Positions 1 through 8,616 of a stretch of 64,000 nucleotides of DNA are shown piece after piece (the stretch's first letter is position 1; each line of letters opens with the position of its first letter). Location: NCBI GenBank assembly GCA_016871175.1, contig VFZL01000003.1, positions 124,001 to 188,000 of the forward strand, given 5' to 3'. The translations under genes and the position numbers were made by a program. Origin of the DNA: Acidimicrobiia bacterium (lineage in GTDB: Bacteria > Acidobacteriota > Vicinamibacteria > Vicinamibacterales > CAVVIG01). The notes under the pieces are model-generated. The model made no database searches and was not told where the DNA came from. It worked only from the letters and a program-made list of their open reading frames with translations.

Positions 1-2517
1 CACCCGTGTGCCGACGATCACGGTTCTGGGAGCGCCAGGGGCCAAGAAAGTGCCCTGCTGGACGGGGAACTCGCCACCGACCGCGGGGAACTGACGGGCG
101 ACGAACGTACCTGCAGGGGTGAACGCCACCGACCCGAGCTGCGCGGCCGATGCGTACTCGGCGCCGAGCAGGTTGTTGACCTGGACGAACAGCTGCATCC
201 ACGGCGTGAATCGGTAGCGCACCGACAGGTTGCTCACCACATAGCCGTCGGCCGAGCCGGGACCGAGGTAGAAGAGCCCATCGGGCTCGTGCTCACCGTT
301 CTCGTTGCCGCGTGCGAACGAGCTCGACGCGCCGATCACGTTGAAGTCGATCGAGAGCGCCGGCGTCGGCTGCCAATCCGCGAAGACCTTGAGGGTGTGG
401 CTGGGCATCAACGGAATCCGGTCACCGGGTCCCACCTCGATCGTGCTCTCGAGGCCTGCCCGACCGGCTTCGGCGTTCTCGTTGCTGCTGTTACCCGACC
501 CGTTGACGACTTCATGGCTCTGAAACGTCGCCGAGAGCCAGTTGTAACCCGCGCCGAAGGCCACATCACCCACGCGGCTCTGCACGCCGAGCTCGAGACC
601 GAGCCGACGCGTGCGCCCGAAGTTCTTGAAGTAGCCGAAACCGGTTGCCTCGGACGCGACGAACAGGATGTCGTTCCGATTCTCTGCTTGGAAGAACCCC
701 GCGTTCCACTGCGTGCGCCGGTGCCAGCGCCCGCGGACACCGGCCTCGACAGTCCGCGTCACGACCTGCTCGAGTGGCGGATCACCGGCCATCGCGTTCG
801 GCAGCTTGCATGGCTGCTCAGGGTCTGCGCAGCCCAGCTCGATCGATGTCGCCGCGCGACTGCCTTCGCTGTAGCCCGCGTAGAGATCGATCGAGGGCCG
901 AACGTTGTAGGTCACGCCGGCCGCAGGATTGAATCGCGAGAACACGTGATCCCCATCGAGCGATCCCGCTTCCCCACCCGGGCGGATCCGATCGCGGTTT
1001 TCGAGCCGCGTCCGATTGAAACGACCCGACACGGTGAGGTGCCACACATCGTTCAGCGTGAGCGTATCGAGGGCATAAACGCTCCACGTCCGCTGCACGC
1101 CGTCGAGCCTGACACGCGAATCGAAGGGCTCGCCGTCGACGTCCCCGGCGTTCTCGCCGTCGGCGAAGACGCCCGTGCCCTGGATGCTTCGATCCGGCAA
1201 CAGGTAGCCGAGCTCGGAGGACTGCAGGAAGTCCATGCGGCTCCGGTCGATCGCGGCGCCGAACACGACCTGGTGCTTTGCGGTCCGCCCCGTCTGCTCC
1301 CAGTTGGCCTGCCCCGTGAGACCGGCCGTGTTCTGATGCGCCTGCCCACGGTTGATCAACCCGTTGCACTGCTCTCCGGGCTCATCTTGGAGGAGGATGT
1401 TGCCAATACAGCGCAGGAATGGAAACGGCATGGTCGCGGCGCTCGCACCACTCACCGGCACAGTGGTGTACCCGGCAGCGATGAGCGCAGCACGTTCCGC
1501 AGCGCTCGGCTGATACACCGACTGATCGAGCGAGCCTTCGTTGGAGTCGCCGTTGAACGTGTGCGTCCGGATGTGCCGGACGTAGCCGCTGCCGGTGAAG
1601 CCGAGGCGATCGGACCACGCGCGACGAAAGATCGCATTGACCCATGTCGATCGGTTGTCGGTCTCATCAGGCTTCGTGTAGACGCTGCGGTAATCGCGCT
1701 CGAGCAATCGCTCCTCTTGAAGCCCATTCCCATTCAGCGCGTTGTCCGCGTGGGCCGCTGACACGGTCAGCGTGGTGCGCGCGTGCTGCCAGCCGATCTT
1801 GCCGAACAGTTGCCTCACGTCTGACGGGGATGCCTCGCGCCAGCCGTCCTCGGCGAACAGATTTCCGGTGGCGTACCAATGCAGCGACCCGTCGCCACGC
1901 GAGGCCCCGTGCTCGAACTCGACAGCCCGCCGTACGAACTGCCCGTAGAGGGCCTGGACCGACGTCCCTTTGTGGCTCAAGCCGTCCTTGGTCTGGAGCA
2001 CCAACGAACCGCCGAGCGTGTTGAGCCCGAAAAGCGGGTTCGATCCGGGCATCACCGCCGAGGAGGCGATCGCCGCTCGCGAAATGAGATCCCAACTGAC
2101 CACCTCGCCGAACGGCTGATTCATGCGGACGCCGTCCATGTACACCGACAGGCCCTGCGGAGTCCCCAACAGCGGTGAGGCGGTGTAGCCGCGGTAGTTG
2201 ACGTCTGCCTGATACGGGTTTCCCTGGATGTCGTTGATATGAACCGCGGTGGCGCGGCGATTGAGGAAGTCCGCGAGGTTCAACGCGCCGCTGGCATCAA
2301 GGTCGCGATCGGAGGCGGTCTGAATCGGCGCGGGGAGCTGCTCCGCCGTGACCGTCAGTCCTGGGATCGGCGTGGTACCCACGACGTCGACCTCTTCTTC
2401 GAAGGTGGGCGTTCCCTGAGGCGGCGGGGTCTGCGGCGGCTGCGCGGTTGCGTGGCCGACCCACACCAGCAGCACGCCGGCACAGACCATCCCTCTCCAA
2501 CGGATCGAATCCAACAC
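1..2517 (-). CDS. TonB-dependent outer-membrane receptor, C-terminus beyond the left edge
   Basis: An open minus-strand frame runs without a stop from a GTG at 2517 (TTG at 2520 is the alternative) to the window edge, about 839 codons. The start follows AGGAG at a spacing of 8. A signal peptide (residues 1 to about 26, ending ATAQ) is followed by a proline-rich stretch and a plug domain (about 35-165) with the usual sequence of plug motifs, including YMDGVRMNQPFGE and GLNTLGGSLVL. The rest is an aromatic-rich beta barrel; the late motif VQVNNLLGAEY is close to the end of the family, so only a few residues should be missing. It would import a siderophore, vitamin or glycan fragment with TonB energy; the substrate cannot be read. 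It is divergent from the sigma/anti-sigma pair, which might respond to the same signal (inference). Confidence 0.9.
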   Translation of the reverse strand, partial: MLDSIRWRGMVCAGVLLVWVGHATAQPPQTPPPQGTPTFEEEVDVVGTTPIPGLTVTAEQLPAPIQTASDRDLDASGALNLADFLNRRATAVHINDIQGNPYQADVNYRGYTASPLLGTPQGLSVYMDGVRMNQPFGEVVSWDLISRAAIASSAVMPGSNPLFGLNTLGGSLVLQTKDGLSHKGTSVQALYGQFVRRAVEFEHGASRGDGSLHWYATGNLFAEDGWREASPSDVRQLFGKIGWQHARTTLTVSAAHADNALNGNGLQEERLLERDYRSVYTKPDETDNRSTWVNAIFRRAWSDRLGFTGSGYVRHIRTHTFNGDSNEGSLDQSVYQPSAAERAALIAAGYTTVPVSGASAATMPFPFLRCIGNILLQDEPGEQCNGLINRGQAHQNTAGLTGQANWEQTGRTAKHQVVFGAAIDRSRMDFLQSSELGYLLPDRSIQGTGVFADGENAGDVDGEPFDSRVRLDGVQRTWSVYALDTLTLNDVWHLTVSGRFNRTRLENRDRIRPGGEAGSLDGDHVFSRFNPAAGVTYNVRPSIDLYAGYSEGSRAATSIELGCADPEQPCKLPNAMAGDPPLEQVVTRTVEAGVRGRWHRRTQWNAGFFQAENRNDILFVASEATGFGYFKNFGRTRRLGLELGVQSRVGDVAFGAGYNWLSATFQSHEVVNGSGNSSNENAEAGRAGLESTIEVGPGDRIPLMPSHTLKVFADWQPTPALSIDFNVIGASSSFARGNENGEHEPDGLFYLGPGSADGYVVSNLSVRYRFTPWMQLFVQVNNLLGAEYASAAQLGSVAFTPAGTFVARQFPAVGGEFPVQQGTFLAPGAPRTVIVGTRV

Positions 2518-2660
2518 CAAGCTGTCTCCTGTGCGCCATTGCCTCGGTGCCCCTCGGCCGCACGCTGGCTCGCAGGCGTACATCCCCGCGGCCGACGCGC
2601 CGTTCACGCTCTTTTTTCGGCGGCGCCTCGTGGGTCAGCCGGCGGGCGCTCGCGTATAGA

Positions 2661-3248
2661 ATGCGCGGACGCATGTCCGCTCGGGAACCGTTCGTGACGC
2701 CGTTCGTGTTGCCAGCCCCACTCGATGTGCCGGCCGAGGGGTCGTGCCACGCCGAGGCCCAGGTCCTGGCTCTGTTCGATGACTATCAGCGCCCGCTCCA
2801 ACGGTACCTCATCTCGCTCGGCCTCGGCCCGGACGCGGCCGAAGACGTCGTCCAGGACGTGTTCGTGGCGCTGTTTCAGCACCTGCAGCGCGGGCAGTCC
2901 AGTCACAATCTGCCCGGCTGGCTCTTCAAAGTGGCGTACAACCTCGGTCTGAAGCATCGGCGGGCACACCGGCGCCGCTGGTGGTTTCAGGGCACGTCGG
3001 CGACGTCCGGATCCGACCCGATCGATTCAACCGCCGATCCTGAAACACAACTGGCGGAAGCAGAGCAGCGCCTCCGCTGGCAAGGAGTTCTCCGGGCCTT
3101 GCCGGAGCGCGATCGCCGGTGTGTGCTCCTCCGTGCGGAAGGCCACACGTATCGTGCGATTGCGGCGCTTCTGAACGTGTCGCTCGGAACGGTCGCGAAG
3201 TCGATGGCGCGCGCGCTGGACCGATTCGGGCGAGCCGATCAACGGTGA
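2661..3248 (+). CDS. ECF-type RNA polymerase sigma factor
   Basis: A 195-residue sigma-70 family protein. Region 2 (about residues 36-100) shows the core-binding helix with DAAEDVVQDVFVALF and the tryptophan GWLF motif; region 4 (about 135-190) shows ALPERDRRCVLLRAEGHTYRAIAALLNVSLGTV split by a helix-turn-helix. The open frame extends upstream to 2448 but that part is arginine-rich shadow. Starts at 2661 or 2673 are both possible; neither has a ribosome-binding site, and a TATAGAAT -10-like element lies at 2655-2662, so the mRNA may be leaderless with the start at 2673. Its stop overlaps the start of the anti-sigma gene. It probably activates its own operon and an extracytoplasmic response. 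Confidence 0.9.
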   Translation: MRGRMSAREPFVTPFVLPAPLDVPAEGSCHAEAQVLALFDDYQRPLQRYLISLGLGPDAAEDVVQDVFVALFQHLQRGQSSHNLPGWLFKVAYNLGLKHRRAHRRRWWFQGTSATSGSDPIDSTADPETQLAEAEQRLRWQGVLRALPERDRRCVLLRAEGHTYRAIAALLNVSLGTVAKSMARALDRFGRADQR

Positions 3249-4084
3249 CGCAGATGTTCAACGCTCCTCTCTCACTCGACCGCAGGCGCCATGTTCAGGA
3301 CGCGGAGCTCCTGCGATTCGGTGTCGAGCCCGGCACCTCGCGGACGGATGCGGCGATCGCTTTGCACGTGGCGACGTGCGCCCGGTGCCAGCGCCGTCTG
3401 CAGGCGCTCGTAGACGCCGACCGTCGACTGCAGGCCTTCGACGCGCAGGACGACTGGATCTCGAACGCGCGACGTGTGCGCGCGCGCGCCCAGCTCCAGG
3501 CCCGCCTCGCGGCGTACCCCACGGGCTGGCCGGCCGGTCGGCCCAGGCCCCTTCATCTCGCGGTCGGTGCCGCGCTCGGTGGGCTCATCGTGGCCGTCGG
3601 CCTGACCGTCGGGACGACGTGGACCGCGCGCTCCGACGCGCCACGCGTGCCAGAAGTGGCGGCACCAGTCCGGCTCGCTCGTGCGCTGCCGATCCGCACG
3701 CTCACTCCGGGCGCGACGGTCGCGGTCCCGGTCGACGAGCTCTGCCGTCTGCAAATGCGGGAGCCGGAGCCGATTCCCACCTCGGTGCGCGCGGCGGTCC
3801 TACGCGCGTACGGGATGGAGGCGGCGCCCGACCACGAGTACGAGCTCGACTTCCTCATTACGCCAGCGCTCGGCGGATCTCCAGATCCGCGCAATCTGTG
3901 GCCCGAGCCGTACCACTCGCCCGTGTGGAACGCGTCAGTGAAGGACGAACTGGAGATCCTGCTGCCGCGGCTCGTCTGCGCTGGTCAGATCGACCTCGAG
4001 ACCGCGCAACGCGACATCGCGATCGACTGGATCGCGGCGTACAAGAAGTACTTCAAGACCGATCGGCCGCTTCGTCGAGGCTAG
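3245..4084 (+). CDS. Zinc-finger anti-sigma factor with a C-terminal HNH-like domain
   Basis: The GTG at 3245 overlaps the sigma stop (GTGA), so translation is likely coupled; an ATG at 3254 is the alternative start. The 279-residue protein has an anti-sigma zinc-finger motif HxxxCxxC (H41, C45, C48), a basic linker, one membrane helix (about 103-126) and a long extracytoplasmic part. Residues about 199-270 resemble a small acidobacterial HNH-like module (LGGSPDPRNLWPEP, then a conserved IDWIAAYKKY helix), but the expected D-H pair reads D-F at 202-203, so nuclease activity is unlikely. The module may be a sensor that releases the sigma factor. The HxxxCxxC motif and operon pairing are seen directly; the sensor role is inferred. 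Confidence 0.8.
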   Translation: MTQMFNAPLSLDRRRHVQDAELLRFGVEPGTSRTDAAIALHVATCARCQRRLQALVDADRRLQAFDAQDDWISNARRVRARAQLQARLAAYPTGWPAGRPRPLHLAVGAALGGLIVAVGLTVGTTWTARSDAPRVPEVAAPVRLARALPIRTLTPGATVAVPVDELCRLQMREPEPIPTSVRAAVLRAYGMEAAPDHEYELDFLITPALGGSPDPRNLWPEPYHSPVWNASVKDELEILLPRLVCAGQIDLETAQRDIAIDWIAAYKKYFKTDRPLRRG

Positions 4085-4373: not shown

Positions 4374-5360
4374 CTACTGCGCCAGAGTTATCGGTCGGCC
4401 GGTGATGCGTTCACGACTCACGTCCGGGGACGGCTGTTTCGGCTTGATCTCCACGGTCATCGTCTCGCCCTCCCATCGGGTCACCAGCGGATTCTTGCGC
4501 AGATGGCCGAACAGGTACTCCTCGACGAAGGGCGTGCAGCGATAGTGCAAGACCTGCATGTTGGGCTCAACGCGACGGTAGATCGGCATCGAGATCTTCC
4601 AGGGTCTGGTGAACACCTTCGGGTCTTCGATCGTCGCCTCGTAGTTGATCAGATCCGGCGACGTGAGGGCATAGCGCTCGGTGACCTTCATCGCGTCGCT
4701 GTGGAAGTTGCCCGCCCGATCGAACCACGGTTCGGCGGTGAGATCCGTCACCTCGATCACCAGTGTGTCCCCCTCCCACTTGCCGACCGAATGGCCCATC
4801 CACTGCGGCACCGGCGGTGGCTCCACAGTGTCGAAGTGGATCACGCGCGCGGCGTTCGAGAACGCGAAGAACATGTGGATTTCGTTGCTGCTCTGCACGA
4901 TCTGATAGGGATAGGGCATGTACATCGCCCGCGGTACACCCGGCAGCTGGCATTTCAGCTCTGGATCCCAATCCAGCCAGTACGCGGCGTTCTCGCGCTT
5001 CCGTGCGAGCGCCTCCGGCGTGTAGGGAATCTGGCCGTCACCGTCCACCACACCCAGCGACCCTGGCACACCTCCCGCCGCGCCAAACGGGAGCGACGGT
5101 GCAGCGGGCACTTGCGCAAACTCGTACGGATACACGCCCGGCTGCATCACCGCGCCGGCCCGCGCTTCGTGCGCCTGGAGATCCCAATGCGCCTCGTTGT
5201 TGGTCTGCCAGATCCCGCTGAAGTTCGGCCGATCCCCGATTCGCGGCATGCGCGCCACTGGCGTGCCTTGGTCGCTGGACCGTTCGGGCATCACGAACAT
5301 GGCCGCGGCGGCAGCGACCAACGCCCCAACCAGCGCGCCTCCGATGAATCCACTTCGCAT
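4374..5360 (-). CDS. Secreted/anchored protein of unknown function, FSGIW-type
   Basis: A 328-residue protein starting at ATG 5360 after an AAGG site; the open frame runs further upstream but overlaps the preceding gene. The N-terminus is a membrane anchor or signal (MRSGFIGGALVGALVAAAA). A RPNFSGIWQ motif follows, then a C-terminal half with GKWEGDTLVIEVTDL and a conserved CTPFVEEY segment. The same order of motifs occurs in the gene just upstream, so the two are paralogues. Such proteins are common in Acidobacteria and have no assigned function; no catalytic motif is visible. It lies 8 bases after the stop of the upstream paralogue and is likely co-transcribed with it. Confidence 0.8.
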   Translation of the reverse strand: MRSGFIGGALVGALVAAAAAMFVMPERSSDQGTPVARMPRIGDRPNFSGIWQTNNEAHWDLQAHEARAGAVMQPGVYPYEFAQVPAAPSLPFGAAGGVPGSLGVVDGDGQIPYTPEALARKRENAAYWLDWDPELKCQLPGVPRAMYMPYPYQIVQSSNEIHMFFAFSNAARVIHFDTVEPPPVPQWMGHSVGKWEGDTLVIEVTDLTAEPWFDRAGNFHSDAMKVTERYALTSPDLINYEATIEDPKVFTRPWKISMPIYRRVEPNMQVLHYRCTPFVEEYLFGHLRKNPLVTRWEGETMTVEIKPKQPSPDVSRERITGRPITLAQ

Positions 5361-5368
5361 GTGACCTT

Positions 5369-6526
5369 CTATCGCGGATCGTTGATTCCCGTCCCGAGTG
5401 ATTCGGAGTTCGAGGAGATATCGAGCGACGCAGGATGCGGCCCGCGACGTGCGGCGAATGCGCGCTCGGCCGCACGCGCACCTGCAAGGAGCCCGACCAT
5501 GCCCTGGTTGCCCTCGTGGCACCGTGGCTCGTAATAGACGCGGTTCAGTTTGCTATCCTGCCGTATCAGCTCTTGCCGAGCCATCCACGGGGCCGTCCAC
5601 GTCGTCTTGTCTTCGACGGTGACTCGGTAGTCGAGCGTCTTGTCGTCGCGACGCGTCCATCGCTCGACCAGGTGCAGGCTCTCGCGAGAATTCTGGAACT
5701 CCATGTAGGGCTCGAAGTTCGTCACATCAACCACCAACGTGTGGCCTTCCCAGCGCCCACGCGAATCCCCAAAGGGCTCGCGTACATGTGGGGCGAGGTG
5801 CGGCCGGTCGGTCACCTGAATCGTGCGGTGGAAGCCCTGTCCCTGACCGATGTCGTAGTAGATGGAGATGACGCCCGGCGATTGGACGATGCGCCAGAAG
5901 CCGTCGAAGGCGGGCAGTTGAGCGCCCATGCAGCGTTCACCCAGGTTGCGATCCTCCGGACCGTCGGCGCGGTTCAAGTTGATCATCGAGTAGGACGGCG
6001 GTCGCTTGTTCAATTTGGGAGACGGAGGACCGTAGGTGCCGTCGGTGCAGTCGCCCCGCTTCTCTTTACACGTGTCCGTGTGCTGCTTGAGCGCCATCGC
6101 GTACGCGCGCATAGCCGTCCGCCGCTGCTGCACTTCCGGCTTGAGCGGCGGAAGGCGGCCGTCAGGCGGGTCGACGATGAGCGAGGTAAACCGGCCCGTT
6201 GGCCGCACCGAGACGAACACCCCGTCGTAGGCGCCGGCCACATCCGCCACGGTTCCGCGCTCCGCGCGAGGGCGTACTTCAGCGCCGAGGCGTCGGCGAT
6301 CCAATTCCGCCACTTCTTCGTCGGTGAACAGCTCGCGGTTGCCCAACTCCGAAGCCCGCTGCAAGTTGACGTCGAACGGGTCGGTCCACACGCCCTGCAA
6401 GTCGGGCTCGCCCCAGGGTGTAACCGCCCCAGCGGGTGTCGTCTGTCCGAACAAGCCCCGCGACCACGAGCCACCGGCGGCCAACAAAATCAGGACTGCA
6501 GTCCACGCGAGTGTGTAGCGGAGCAT
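5369..6526 (-). CDS. Secreted protein of unknown function, LQGVW-type paralogue
   Basis: A 385-residue protein. The ATG at 6526 follows AGGAGG by six bases; a TTG two codons upstream touches that site and is less likely. It has an N-terminal signal peptide (hydrophobic core TLAWTAVLILLAAGG), then GEPDLQGVWTDP, a YSMINLN segment, GRWEGHTLVVDVTNF and a C-terminal EPRCHEGN segment. The order matches the downstream neighbour (FSGIW, WEGDTLVIEV, cysteine segment near the C-terminus), so both likely arose by tandem duplication and act in the periplasm or outside the cell. Function is unknown. Confidence 0.8.
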   Translation of the reverse strand: MLRYTLAWTAVLILLAAGGSWSRGLFGQTTPAGAVTPWGEPDLQGVWTDPFDVNLQRASELGNRELFTDEEVAELDRRRLGAEVRPRAERGTVADVAGAYDGVFVSVRPTGRFTSLIVDPPDGRLPPLKPEVQQRRTAMRAYAMALKQHTDTCKEKRGDCTDGTYGPPSPKLNKRPPSYSMINLNRADGPEDRNLGERCMGAQLPAFDGFWRIVQSPGVISIYYDIGQGQGFHRTIQVTDRPHLAPHVREPFGDSRGRWEGHTLVVDVTNFEPYMEFQNSRESLHLVERWTRRDDKTLDYRVTVEDKTTWTAPWMARQELIRQDSKLNRVYYEPRCHEGNQGMVGLLAGARAAERAFAARRGPHPASLDISSNSESLGTGINDPR

Positions 6527-6667
6527 GGTCAACCTCCTGCGACGTGCTGACTATCCTCGTTCGAGAAGGCCACGTCAAGCGTTCGGGCCACCCGACCATC
6601 GGGTCTGACTCGTGAATGCTGGTCAGCGCGAAGAAACCGCGGAACGGTTTGGATATTGCGCGTCCGG

Positions 6668-6673
6668 TATAAT
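6668..6673 (+). promoter_or_regulatory. Perfect TATAAT -10 hexamer
   Basis: A consensus -10 hexamer stands 26 bases before the ATG of the membrane-TPR gene. No good -35 element is visible at 16-18 bases upstream. It is the best-looking promoter element in this divergent intergenic region. Confidence 0.4.
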
Positions 6674-6699
6674 TGCTGGCCTCGGGAGCGCCCTCATCA

Positions 6700-8616
6700 A
6701 TGCCATCGCAGGCGAGCGCGATTTCGGCGAAACAGCGCCGGTCCAGGAAGCCAGTCGCGGTCGAGGTCCCGGTCCGCCGGATCGGGGTGACGGCAGCATG
6801 GGCCCTCGCGCTGCCGCTCGCCTCCGCGGTGCTGGTCGCCGCGGCGACGCTGCTGCCGCGTTTCCCCGATGCCGATGCGGCTCGCTGGGGCTGCCTGGGA
6901 GCGGCCGGTGCTCTATTGATCGGCAGTCTGGGGTTGTTCGTCGACGCCACACGGCGTCAACGGATCTTCTCGATCGAAGTGAGTCTGCGGAAGCAGCACT
7001 ACGTTCAGGCGTGCGCGCACCTGACGATCTACTGGTACTGGGGGAGCTACTGGGAGGGCGTGCCCGACGCGGCTCCGCTGATCGCCGCCCAGCTCGCGTT
7101 CGCCTACGGAATCGATGCCCTGTTCAGTTGGTCCAGGCGTGAGAGCTACACGCTCGGGTTCGGACCGTTTCCAATCATCTTCAGCACGAACCTCTTTCTT
7201 TGGTTCAAGCCGGATTGGTTCTACCTGCAGTTCCTGATGGTGACGCTCGGCTTCTTCGCGCGCGAGTTCATTCGCTGGGAGAAAGATGGACGCCGTGTCC
7301 ACATCTTCAATCCTTCCTCGTTTCCACTCAGCGTGTTCTCGATCGGGCTGATCCTGACCGGCACCACCAACCTGACGTGGGGCCAGGAGATTGCCAGCAC
7401 ACAGCTGTACCCGCCGCATCTGTATCTGTTGATCTTCCTGGCCAGTCTGCCGGGGCAGTTGTTGTTCGGGGTTGCGCGGATGACGGTCTCGGCGGTGGTG
7501 ACGACGTACCTGCTGATGTGGCTTCACTTCCTCGCGACCGGGATGCACGTCTTCGAGTCGCCAACGATTCCGATTGCCGTGTTCCTCGGCATGCACCTGC
7601 TCTTCACCGATCCGTCGACGTCTCCCCGGACCGAGCTGGGTCGAATCGTGTTCGGCATGCTGTACGGCACCAGCGTCGTGGGACTCTACGTCGTGCTCGA
7701 GCGTCTCGGCGTGCCGACCTTCTACGACAAGCTGCTGCCGGTGCCGATTCTGAATCTCATGGTGCTGGCAATCGACCGGGCGGTGCGGTCCGAGGCCCTG
7801 AAGCGGTTCGATCCGGGGGCCGTCGCCGCCGCGTTGTCGCCTGGCGCTCGAAATGTCGCGTACACGGCGCTTTGGGCCACGGTGTTCGTGGTGTCGTATC
7901 TGGTGACCACGAACGCGACCACGTTGGCGCGCGCTGATGCCCTGCTGGCCGATGGACGCCTCGACGAGGCCATGGGGCACTACCGCGATCTCGTCGCGCG
8001 CGACCCGTCTCGATTCGAAGCTCACAACAAGTTGGGTTACATGTTGATGCGGACCGGACGGCCACAGGAGTCGCTGACGGTGCTTCGGCGTGCGCTCGAG
8101 CTCGCGCCGAAGAACGCGGAGGCGCACAACAATCTCGGTCTGGCGCTGATGCAGGTGGGGCAGGCTCAAGGGGCGGTCGAATCGCTGCGGAGTGCCACGA
8201 CGCTGAACCCGGAGTACTTGGAAGCCCGTTATAACCTGGGGCACGCTCTGCTGGCCGCGGCACAGCCAGCCGCGGCCGCGGAGCAGTTTCGCGAGGCACT
8301 CCGAATCCGCCCTGACTGGACTCCCGCTCTGGGGTCCCTCGCCTGGCTGCAAGCGACGGACGCTGGAGGCATCCGCAACCCCGACGATGCGATCCAGCTG
8401 GCCACGCGAGCGGCCGACCTGACCGGTCGCCACGATGCCCAGGTGCTCGACGTGCTCGCTGCGGCATACGCTGCGGCGGGGCGGTTCCAAGAGGCGACCG
8501 CGACGGCCGAGCTCGCCTCTCGCCTCGCGGCACAGTCAACGCCAGACCTCGCTCAACAGATTGCCGAACGCCTCAAGCTCTATCGAGCCGGGCAGCCCCT
8601 TGTGGCTGGCCGCTGA
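6700..8616 (+). CDS. Polytopic membrane protein (RnfD/NqrB-like) with C-terminal TPR repeats
   Basis: A 638-residue protein; ATG 6700 is chosen over the TTG at 6673, which lies inside the -10 element. About 24 basic residues precede a series of roughly ten membrane helices (to about residue 405). The stretch VHIFNPSSFPLSVFSIGL and the later MHLLFTDPSTSP resemble RnfD/NqrB-like membrane proteins of electron-transport complexes. The last 230 residues hold four to five TPR units, for example AHNNLGLALMQVGQAQGAVE and EARYNLGHALLAAAQPAAAAE. No Rnf partner genes are nearby. The TPR tail suggests a scaffold role. The RnfD link is a resemblance of one segment, not a firm assignment. Confidence 0.7.
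   Translation: MPSQASAISAKQRRSRKPVAVEVPVRRIGVTAAWALALPLASAVLVAAATLLPRFPDADAARWGCLGAAGALLIGSLGLFVDATRRQRIFSIEVSLRKQHYVQACAHLTIYWYWGSYWEGVPDAAPLIAAQLAFAYGIDALFSWSRRESYTLGFGPFPIIFSTNLFLWFKPDWFYLQFLMVTLGFFAREFIRWEKDGRRVHIFNPSSFPLSVFSIGLILTGTTNLTWGQEIASTQLYPPHLYLLIFLASLPGQLLFGVARMTVSAVVTTYLLMWLHFLATGMHVFESPTIPIAVFLGMHLLFTDPSTSPRTELGRIVFGMLYGTSVVGLYVVLERLGVPTFYDKLLPVPILNLMVLAIDRAVRSEALKRFDPGAVAAALSPGARNVAYTALWATVFVVSYLVTTNATTLARADALLADGRLDEAMGHYRDLVARDPSRFEAHNKLGYMLMRTGRPQESLTVLRRALELAPKNAEAHNNLGLALMQVGQAQGAVESLRSATTLNPEYLEARYNLGHALLAAAQPAAAAEQFREALRIRPDWTPALGSLAWLQATDAGGIRNPDDAIQLATRAADLTGRHDAQVLDVLAAAYAAAGRFQEATATAELASRLAAQSTPDLAQQIAERLKLYRAGQPLVAGR

Follow-up and report, generated by a model that had tools for sequence, protein, structure and literature searches.

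A candidate ECF/anti-σ switch with a putatively disarmed HNH-like outer part beside TonB-dependent receptor genes of Acidobacteriota

Zinc-type anti-σ factors, ECF σ factor circuits linked to TonB-dependent receptors and HNH domains are all known kinds of elements, and it is a recurring theme that an enzyme-like domain loses its catalysis and turns into a sensor. In cell-surface signalling of the FecI/FecR/FecA type (reviewed in PMC9249621), an ECF σ factor, an anti-σ factor with one membrane helix and a TonB-dependent receptor are encoded together. The same three partners are found at the locus described here, which differs in that neither a FecR periplasmic domain nor an STN domain of the receptors was found, the anti-σ domain is of the zinc type and the receptor gene is divergent. 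The Hx3Cx2C motif of zinc-type anti-σ domains has been described (PMC7406223); the class I (ASDI/ZAS) factors ChrR and RsiW treated there share with our protein this motif with an upstream His and a gene that overlaps the ECF σ gene, but not the periplasmic pseudo-HNH module. In RsiV, a lysozyme-binding anti-σ receptor, the protein's own outer domain senses the signal (PMC4183432). The sensing by an outer domain that we propose below would be similar in principle, whereas the sensor domain and the signal differ. The literature searched, whose coverage ended short of the full ECF re-classification, contained no HNH/anti-σ combination of this kind and no description of a clade-wide disarmed HNH-like outer part on an anti-σ factor.

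The window (the whole 64,000-nucleotide stretch of DNA that was analyzed) carries the following features at the locus:

1-2520, minus strand: divergent TonB-dependent receptor (Pfam TonB_dep_Rec_b-barrel, 7e-37; Plug, 1e-10)
2581-2606, minus strand: two-box, promoter-like site (TGAACGG...GGGGATG) oriented towards the receptor gene, matching the family motif weakly
2673-3248, plus strand: ECF σ factor, ~191 aa (Pfam Sigma70_r2, 5e-10; Sigma70_r4_2, 4e-12)
3245-4084, plus strand: putative anti-σ factor with a pseudo-HNH periplasmic module, 279 aa plus stop
3245-3553, plus strand: its cytoplasmic zinc-type anti-σ domain (invariant ligands; zf-HC2 and PupR/ChrR structure matches)
3554-3631, plus strand: single membrane helix, residues 104-129 (predicted helix, hydrophobicity peak)
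3680-4072, plus strand: periplasmic pseudo-HNH module, residues 146-276

The 3245-4084 frame begins with a GTG codon that overlaps the stop codon of the ECF σ gene by 4 nt; an ATG at 3254 is a possible alternative start. The initial annotation had read the product as a cytoplasmic zinc-finger anti-σ domain joined through one membrane helix to a degenerate HNH-like module, and both sequences by which it had recognized the module, LGGSPDPRNLWPEP and IDWIAAYKKY, do lie in this single open frame. The zinc-finger part of that reading was borne out as well: HVATCARC is in frame, and the putative zinc ligands H16 (3290), H41 (3365), C45 (3377) and C48 (3386) form the pattern Hx24Hx3Cx2C, with the upstream His as in ChrR/RsrA. 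Only one hydrophobic helix joins the two parts. The module itself contains D202 (3848), F203 (3851) at the position of the catalytic His, N217 (3893) and a pair of cysteines, C167 (3743) and C245 (3977).

For comparison, genome contigs were scanned, which yielded 213 coding stretches; the best 80 of the 213 were taken as loci. The zinc-finger motif, a hydrophobic stretch and the module are present in one frame in 74 of these best 80. Four of the six exceptions (L061, L070, L086 and L101) end at contig ends, the N-terminus of L114 is unclear, and the zinc finger is lost from L109. The last protein (L109:3806-5107, the same as L018) has D-A at the D-H site, and a σ gene is still found upstream of it. 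An alignment was made of 73 rows, comprising the window protein and proteins from 72 loci, and H16, H41, C45, C48, C167, C245, D202, N217, W219 and K233 are invariant in all 73. A frame error joining two genes, which had been named as one of the conditions that would speak against the initial reading, was ruled out, as the architecture is kept across the loci and the aligned proteins share their key residues. A phylum-wide search of 396 genomes revealed a match in 15; the module is fused in 13 of these, among them the window's genome, and is a separate protein in the other two. The dN/dS ratio of the module was ~0.04-0.24 over pairs of relatives and ~0.13-0.24 against the closest ones. Thus, the window protein is a member of a large conserved family, and its module evolves under purifying selection. 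Two loci come from contigs titled Bordetella parapertussis (L100) and Nevskia soli (L044), and their modules group with those of Acidobacteriota; these assemblies are likely misnamed, and L100 appears to be a contig of a genome placed in Acidobacteriota (G231:C15, same protein).

The window protein's own zinc finger was not matched by Pfam zf-HC2, which was found in 60 of the 73 aligned anti-σ proteins. When structures were compared, the N-terminus of the full-length model resembled the anti-σ domains of PupR (Z 4.5) and ChrR (Z 3.3). Since the ZAS-type motif is invariant, zf-HC2 is present in most of the proteins and the PupR and ChrR structures match, there is good support for assigning the 3245-4084 product to the class I, zinc-type (ASDI/ZAS), membrane-bound anti-σ factors, which would act by inhibiting the paired σ factor.

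The genomic surroundings of the module are conserved too. A σ gene lies directly upstream of the anti-σ gene in 72 of the 80 loci, and several of the others end at contig ends. Linkage to a receptor could be tested in 68 loci, where the σ gene is present and more than 1 kb of upstream sequence is available; a divergent TonB-dependent receptor was detected in 51 of them and not in the other 17, and five more of the 68 have a receptor nearby in another orientation. The window receptor, whose 3' end lies just past the window start, consists of plug and barrel, with no STN or extra N-terminal domain. At E 0.01, none of the 73 anti-σ proteins matched the FecR domain and none of 52 receptor N-termini matched STN, while CarboxypepD_reg was matched by 45 of the 52. 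As for the receptor ligand, the best NCBIfam matches (siderophore, PqqU, haem) were all far below cut-offs, and no solved receptor gave a sequence match. In several Acidobacteriaceae (L173, L176, L177 and L180-L183), the locus is followed by genes for YVTN beta-propeller, cupredoxin-like, di-haem peroxidase-like and PQQ-type propeller proteins. Since the YVTN, peroxidase and PQQ-type neighbours are absent from the window's genome, we do not claim a ligand.

A de novo search of the upstream regions retrieved a bipartite motif, TGAAC-N16-GAAT, with the extended form WAA...TGAACAAA-N13-GGAATAT, which is the kind of promoter motif expected for ECF σ factors. With no more than one mismatch, the motif faces the receptor in 54 of 73 upstream regions (~1.5 in shuffles) and the σ gene in 31 of 73 (~1.6 in shuffles). 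The receptor-facing copy is found in 46 of the 51 loci with a divergent receptor versus 4 of the 17 without one (Fisher p 5e-7). When eight whole genomes were searched with a strict form of the motif, seven exact matches were obtained, of which six precede a TonB receptor gene, and the reversed control gave none. In the window, the receptor-facing copy is weak, scoring 3.3 bits against 4.1 bits for the shuffled 99th percentile, and no copy in the σ direction was found. The site aligns in register with a stronger site of locus L036. A loosened pattern has this site as its sole exact match in the window and has four exact matches in the window's genome; as we read them, only the one at this locus faces a TonB receptor. 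The position of the motif and its co-occurrence with the receptor suggest that it would be read by the adjacent σ factor.

These data are consistent with the following circuit, which we consider moderately probable. At rest, the product of the adjacent upstream gene, the ECF σ factor, would be held by the N-terminal domain. The pseudo-HNH module would then be altered by an event in the periplasm, most likely the binding of a compound imported by the neighbouring TonB-dependent receptor, and the anti-σ factor would be inactivated, probably through stepwise proteolysis. The freed σ factor would act at TGAAC-N16-GAAT promoters to transcribe the divergent receptor gene and, in many relatives, also the operon to which it belongs. 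The switch would thus have a disarmed HNH-like outer part and would control the TonB-dependent receptor, the module playing the role of an extracytoplasmic sensor.

The main rival to direct sensing is that the module binds no small ligand and instead makes contact, in the way that FecR docks to FecA, with the receptor on its periplasmic side, at the plug, the TonB box or the CarboxypepD_reg domain. The strong linkage of module loci to TonB-dependent receptors agrees with this possibility, and the CarboxypepD_reg domains common among the receptor N-termini offer a possible contact. The window receptor, however, shows only the plug at its N-terminus, without a further domain, and docking alone does not predict that D202 and N217, which would belong to the active site, should be invariant, so that we regard this alternative as possible but rather unlikely. 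Since neither FecR in the anti-σ proteins nor STN in the receptors was matched, direct sensing by the pseudo-HNH module is favoured.

What kind of domain the module is was addressed with profiles and with structure prediction. Pfam, NCBIfam and PHROGs gave no significant match to the module of the window protein, and a sequence search for its solved relatives retrieved none. Separate proteins that carry a D-H form of the module matched Endonuclea_NS_2 in 8 of 16 cases (best 2.6e-4), HNH_5 (1.8e-3) and HNH (0.015), all under the curated cut-offs. With hhalign, which was run against HNH (PF01844) proteins from the relatives' genomes, D-H, GG and N fell in register (P 1.9e-4 for the separate and 2.4e-3 for the fused modules). 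AlphaFold2 modelled the module from 87 sequences with a pLDDT of 92.5 and a pTM of 0.86, and the predicted order is strand 54-58, strand 73-77 and helix 85-100, i.e., beta-beta-alpha. The VIA-align rows with Z of at least 2 (Z 3.2-4.7) include the Cas8-HNH, Rhs2-CT, Gme HNH and Sda1 nucleases; all 16 of the rows listed at this threshold are HNH/bba-Me nucleases, none of them individually significant. Foldseek placed the same nuclease chains first, with E above 1, and also returned unrelated helical matches. One could argue from the lack of a significant match to any solved structure, and from Pfam matches that stay under the curated cut-offs, that the D-H...GG...N pattern arose by convergence and that the module has a fold of its own. 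Against this, the D-H-x14-N spacing is in register with that of HNH proteins, a strand-strand-helix is predicted and the listed Z rows are exclusively nucleases, which makes an origin outside HNH improbable. Taken together, the weak scores are best read as those of a degenerate bba-Me/HNH-like domain, in agreement with what had been proposed for it.

The D-H relatives mentioned by the initial annotation as acidobacterial proteins do exist, as small secreted single-domain proteins (in Acidobacteriota, for example, L007, L015 and L033), sometimes annotated "HNH endonuclease". Proteins of this kind, such as WP_134493347.1 of Methylocella tundrae, share with the fused form a module of ~125 residues and, in most cases, the Cys pair; unlike the fused modules, they keep the catalytic His and are not anti-σ factors. 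Separate forms are also found on plasmids of Streptomyces, Sphingobium, Methylocella, Deinococcus, Burkholderia and others. A phage origin of the module was considered and rejected, since no match was found in 50,697 phage records; seven IMG/VR contigs encode separate D-H forms. Profiles of the fused and separate sets match each other with E 4e-60.

The two sets part at the would-be active site. Module position 58, that of the His, is Tyr in 68, Phe in 9, His in 3 and Ala in 1 of the 81 fused modules, i.e., other than His in 78, versus His in 18 of the 19 separate proteins inspected (D-H in 18, D-Q in 1). All 81 fused modules have P at position 62, where the six separate rows in the same alignment have L throughout. 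Thus, the D-F pair that had been reported for the window protein is indeed there, as D202-F203, but is not particular to it: the loss is clade-wide and the usual form is D-Y. In a tree built on only 133 columns, in which many inner forks are open, a branch with SH-aLRT 100 divides all 81 fused modules from the separate D-H proteins. The three His-bearing fused modules (L049 together with L054, and L069) are nested inside a clade dominated by Tyr, and we therefore read their D-H as apparent reversions, not as the ancestral state; they would be useful natural test cases. That the module is still a periplasmic nuclease or hydrolase which tolerates Tyr or Phe and signals through catalysis is very improbable: the D-H...N signature always retains its Asp and Asn in the alignment and three members carry the His, but the general base is missing from nearly all fused modules, Phe and Ala are no substitute for it, and the His-bearing members look like reversions.

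The best reading of these sequences is that an ECF/anti-σ switch acquired its outer part through a single capture of a secreted, disarmed HNH-like protein. Extended to the whole clade, this reading would make the dead secreted nuclease-like domain the true receptor, whose former active site binds the compound imported by the TonB-dependent receptor, with receptor-to-σ signalling that needs neither FecR nor STN; we offer this more specific form only tentatively, as rather less likely than not. Many soil Acidobacteriota carry such a putative switch, which, as the genome evidence suggests, would control an adjacent outer-membrane nutrient importer. If right, it provides an ECF circuit testable in cultivated Acidobacteriota (Terriglobus, Granulicella, Acidicapsa), a route from TonB-dependent receptor to transcription without FecR or STN, and a clue to what is imported by these soil bacteria, which are abundant and poorly understood.

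Several further observations were made at these loci. Downstream of the anti-σ gene, window positions 4374-5522 and 5369-6532 (both minus strand) encode two adjacent secreted proteins that resemble each other in size and in the style of their motifs and have no significant Pfam match, and relatives of the two are found near the same locus in L089. The frame at 6673-8616 (plus strand) encodes a membrane protein in which a weak NQR2/RnfD-like region is fused to C-terminal TPR repeats. At L091, a gene for a diverged secreted D-H relative (L091:3341-3838) lies between those for the TonB receptor and the σ factor, beside the fused anti-σ factor; this is the only locus among the 80 with such a neighbour.
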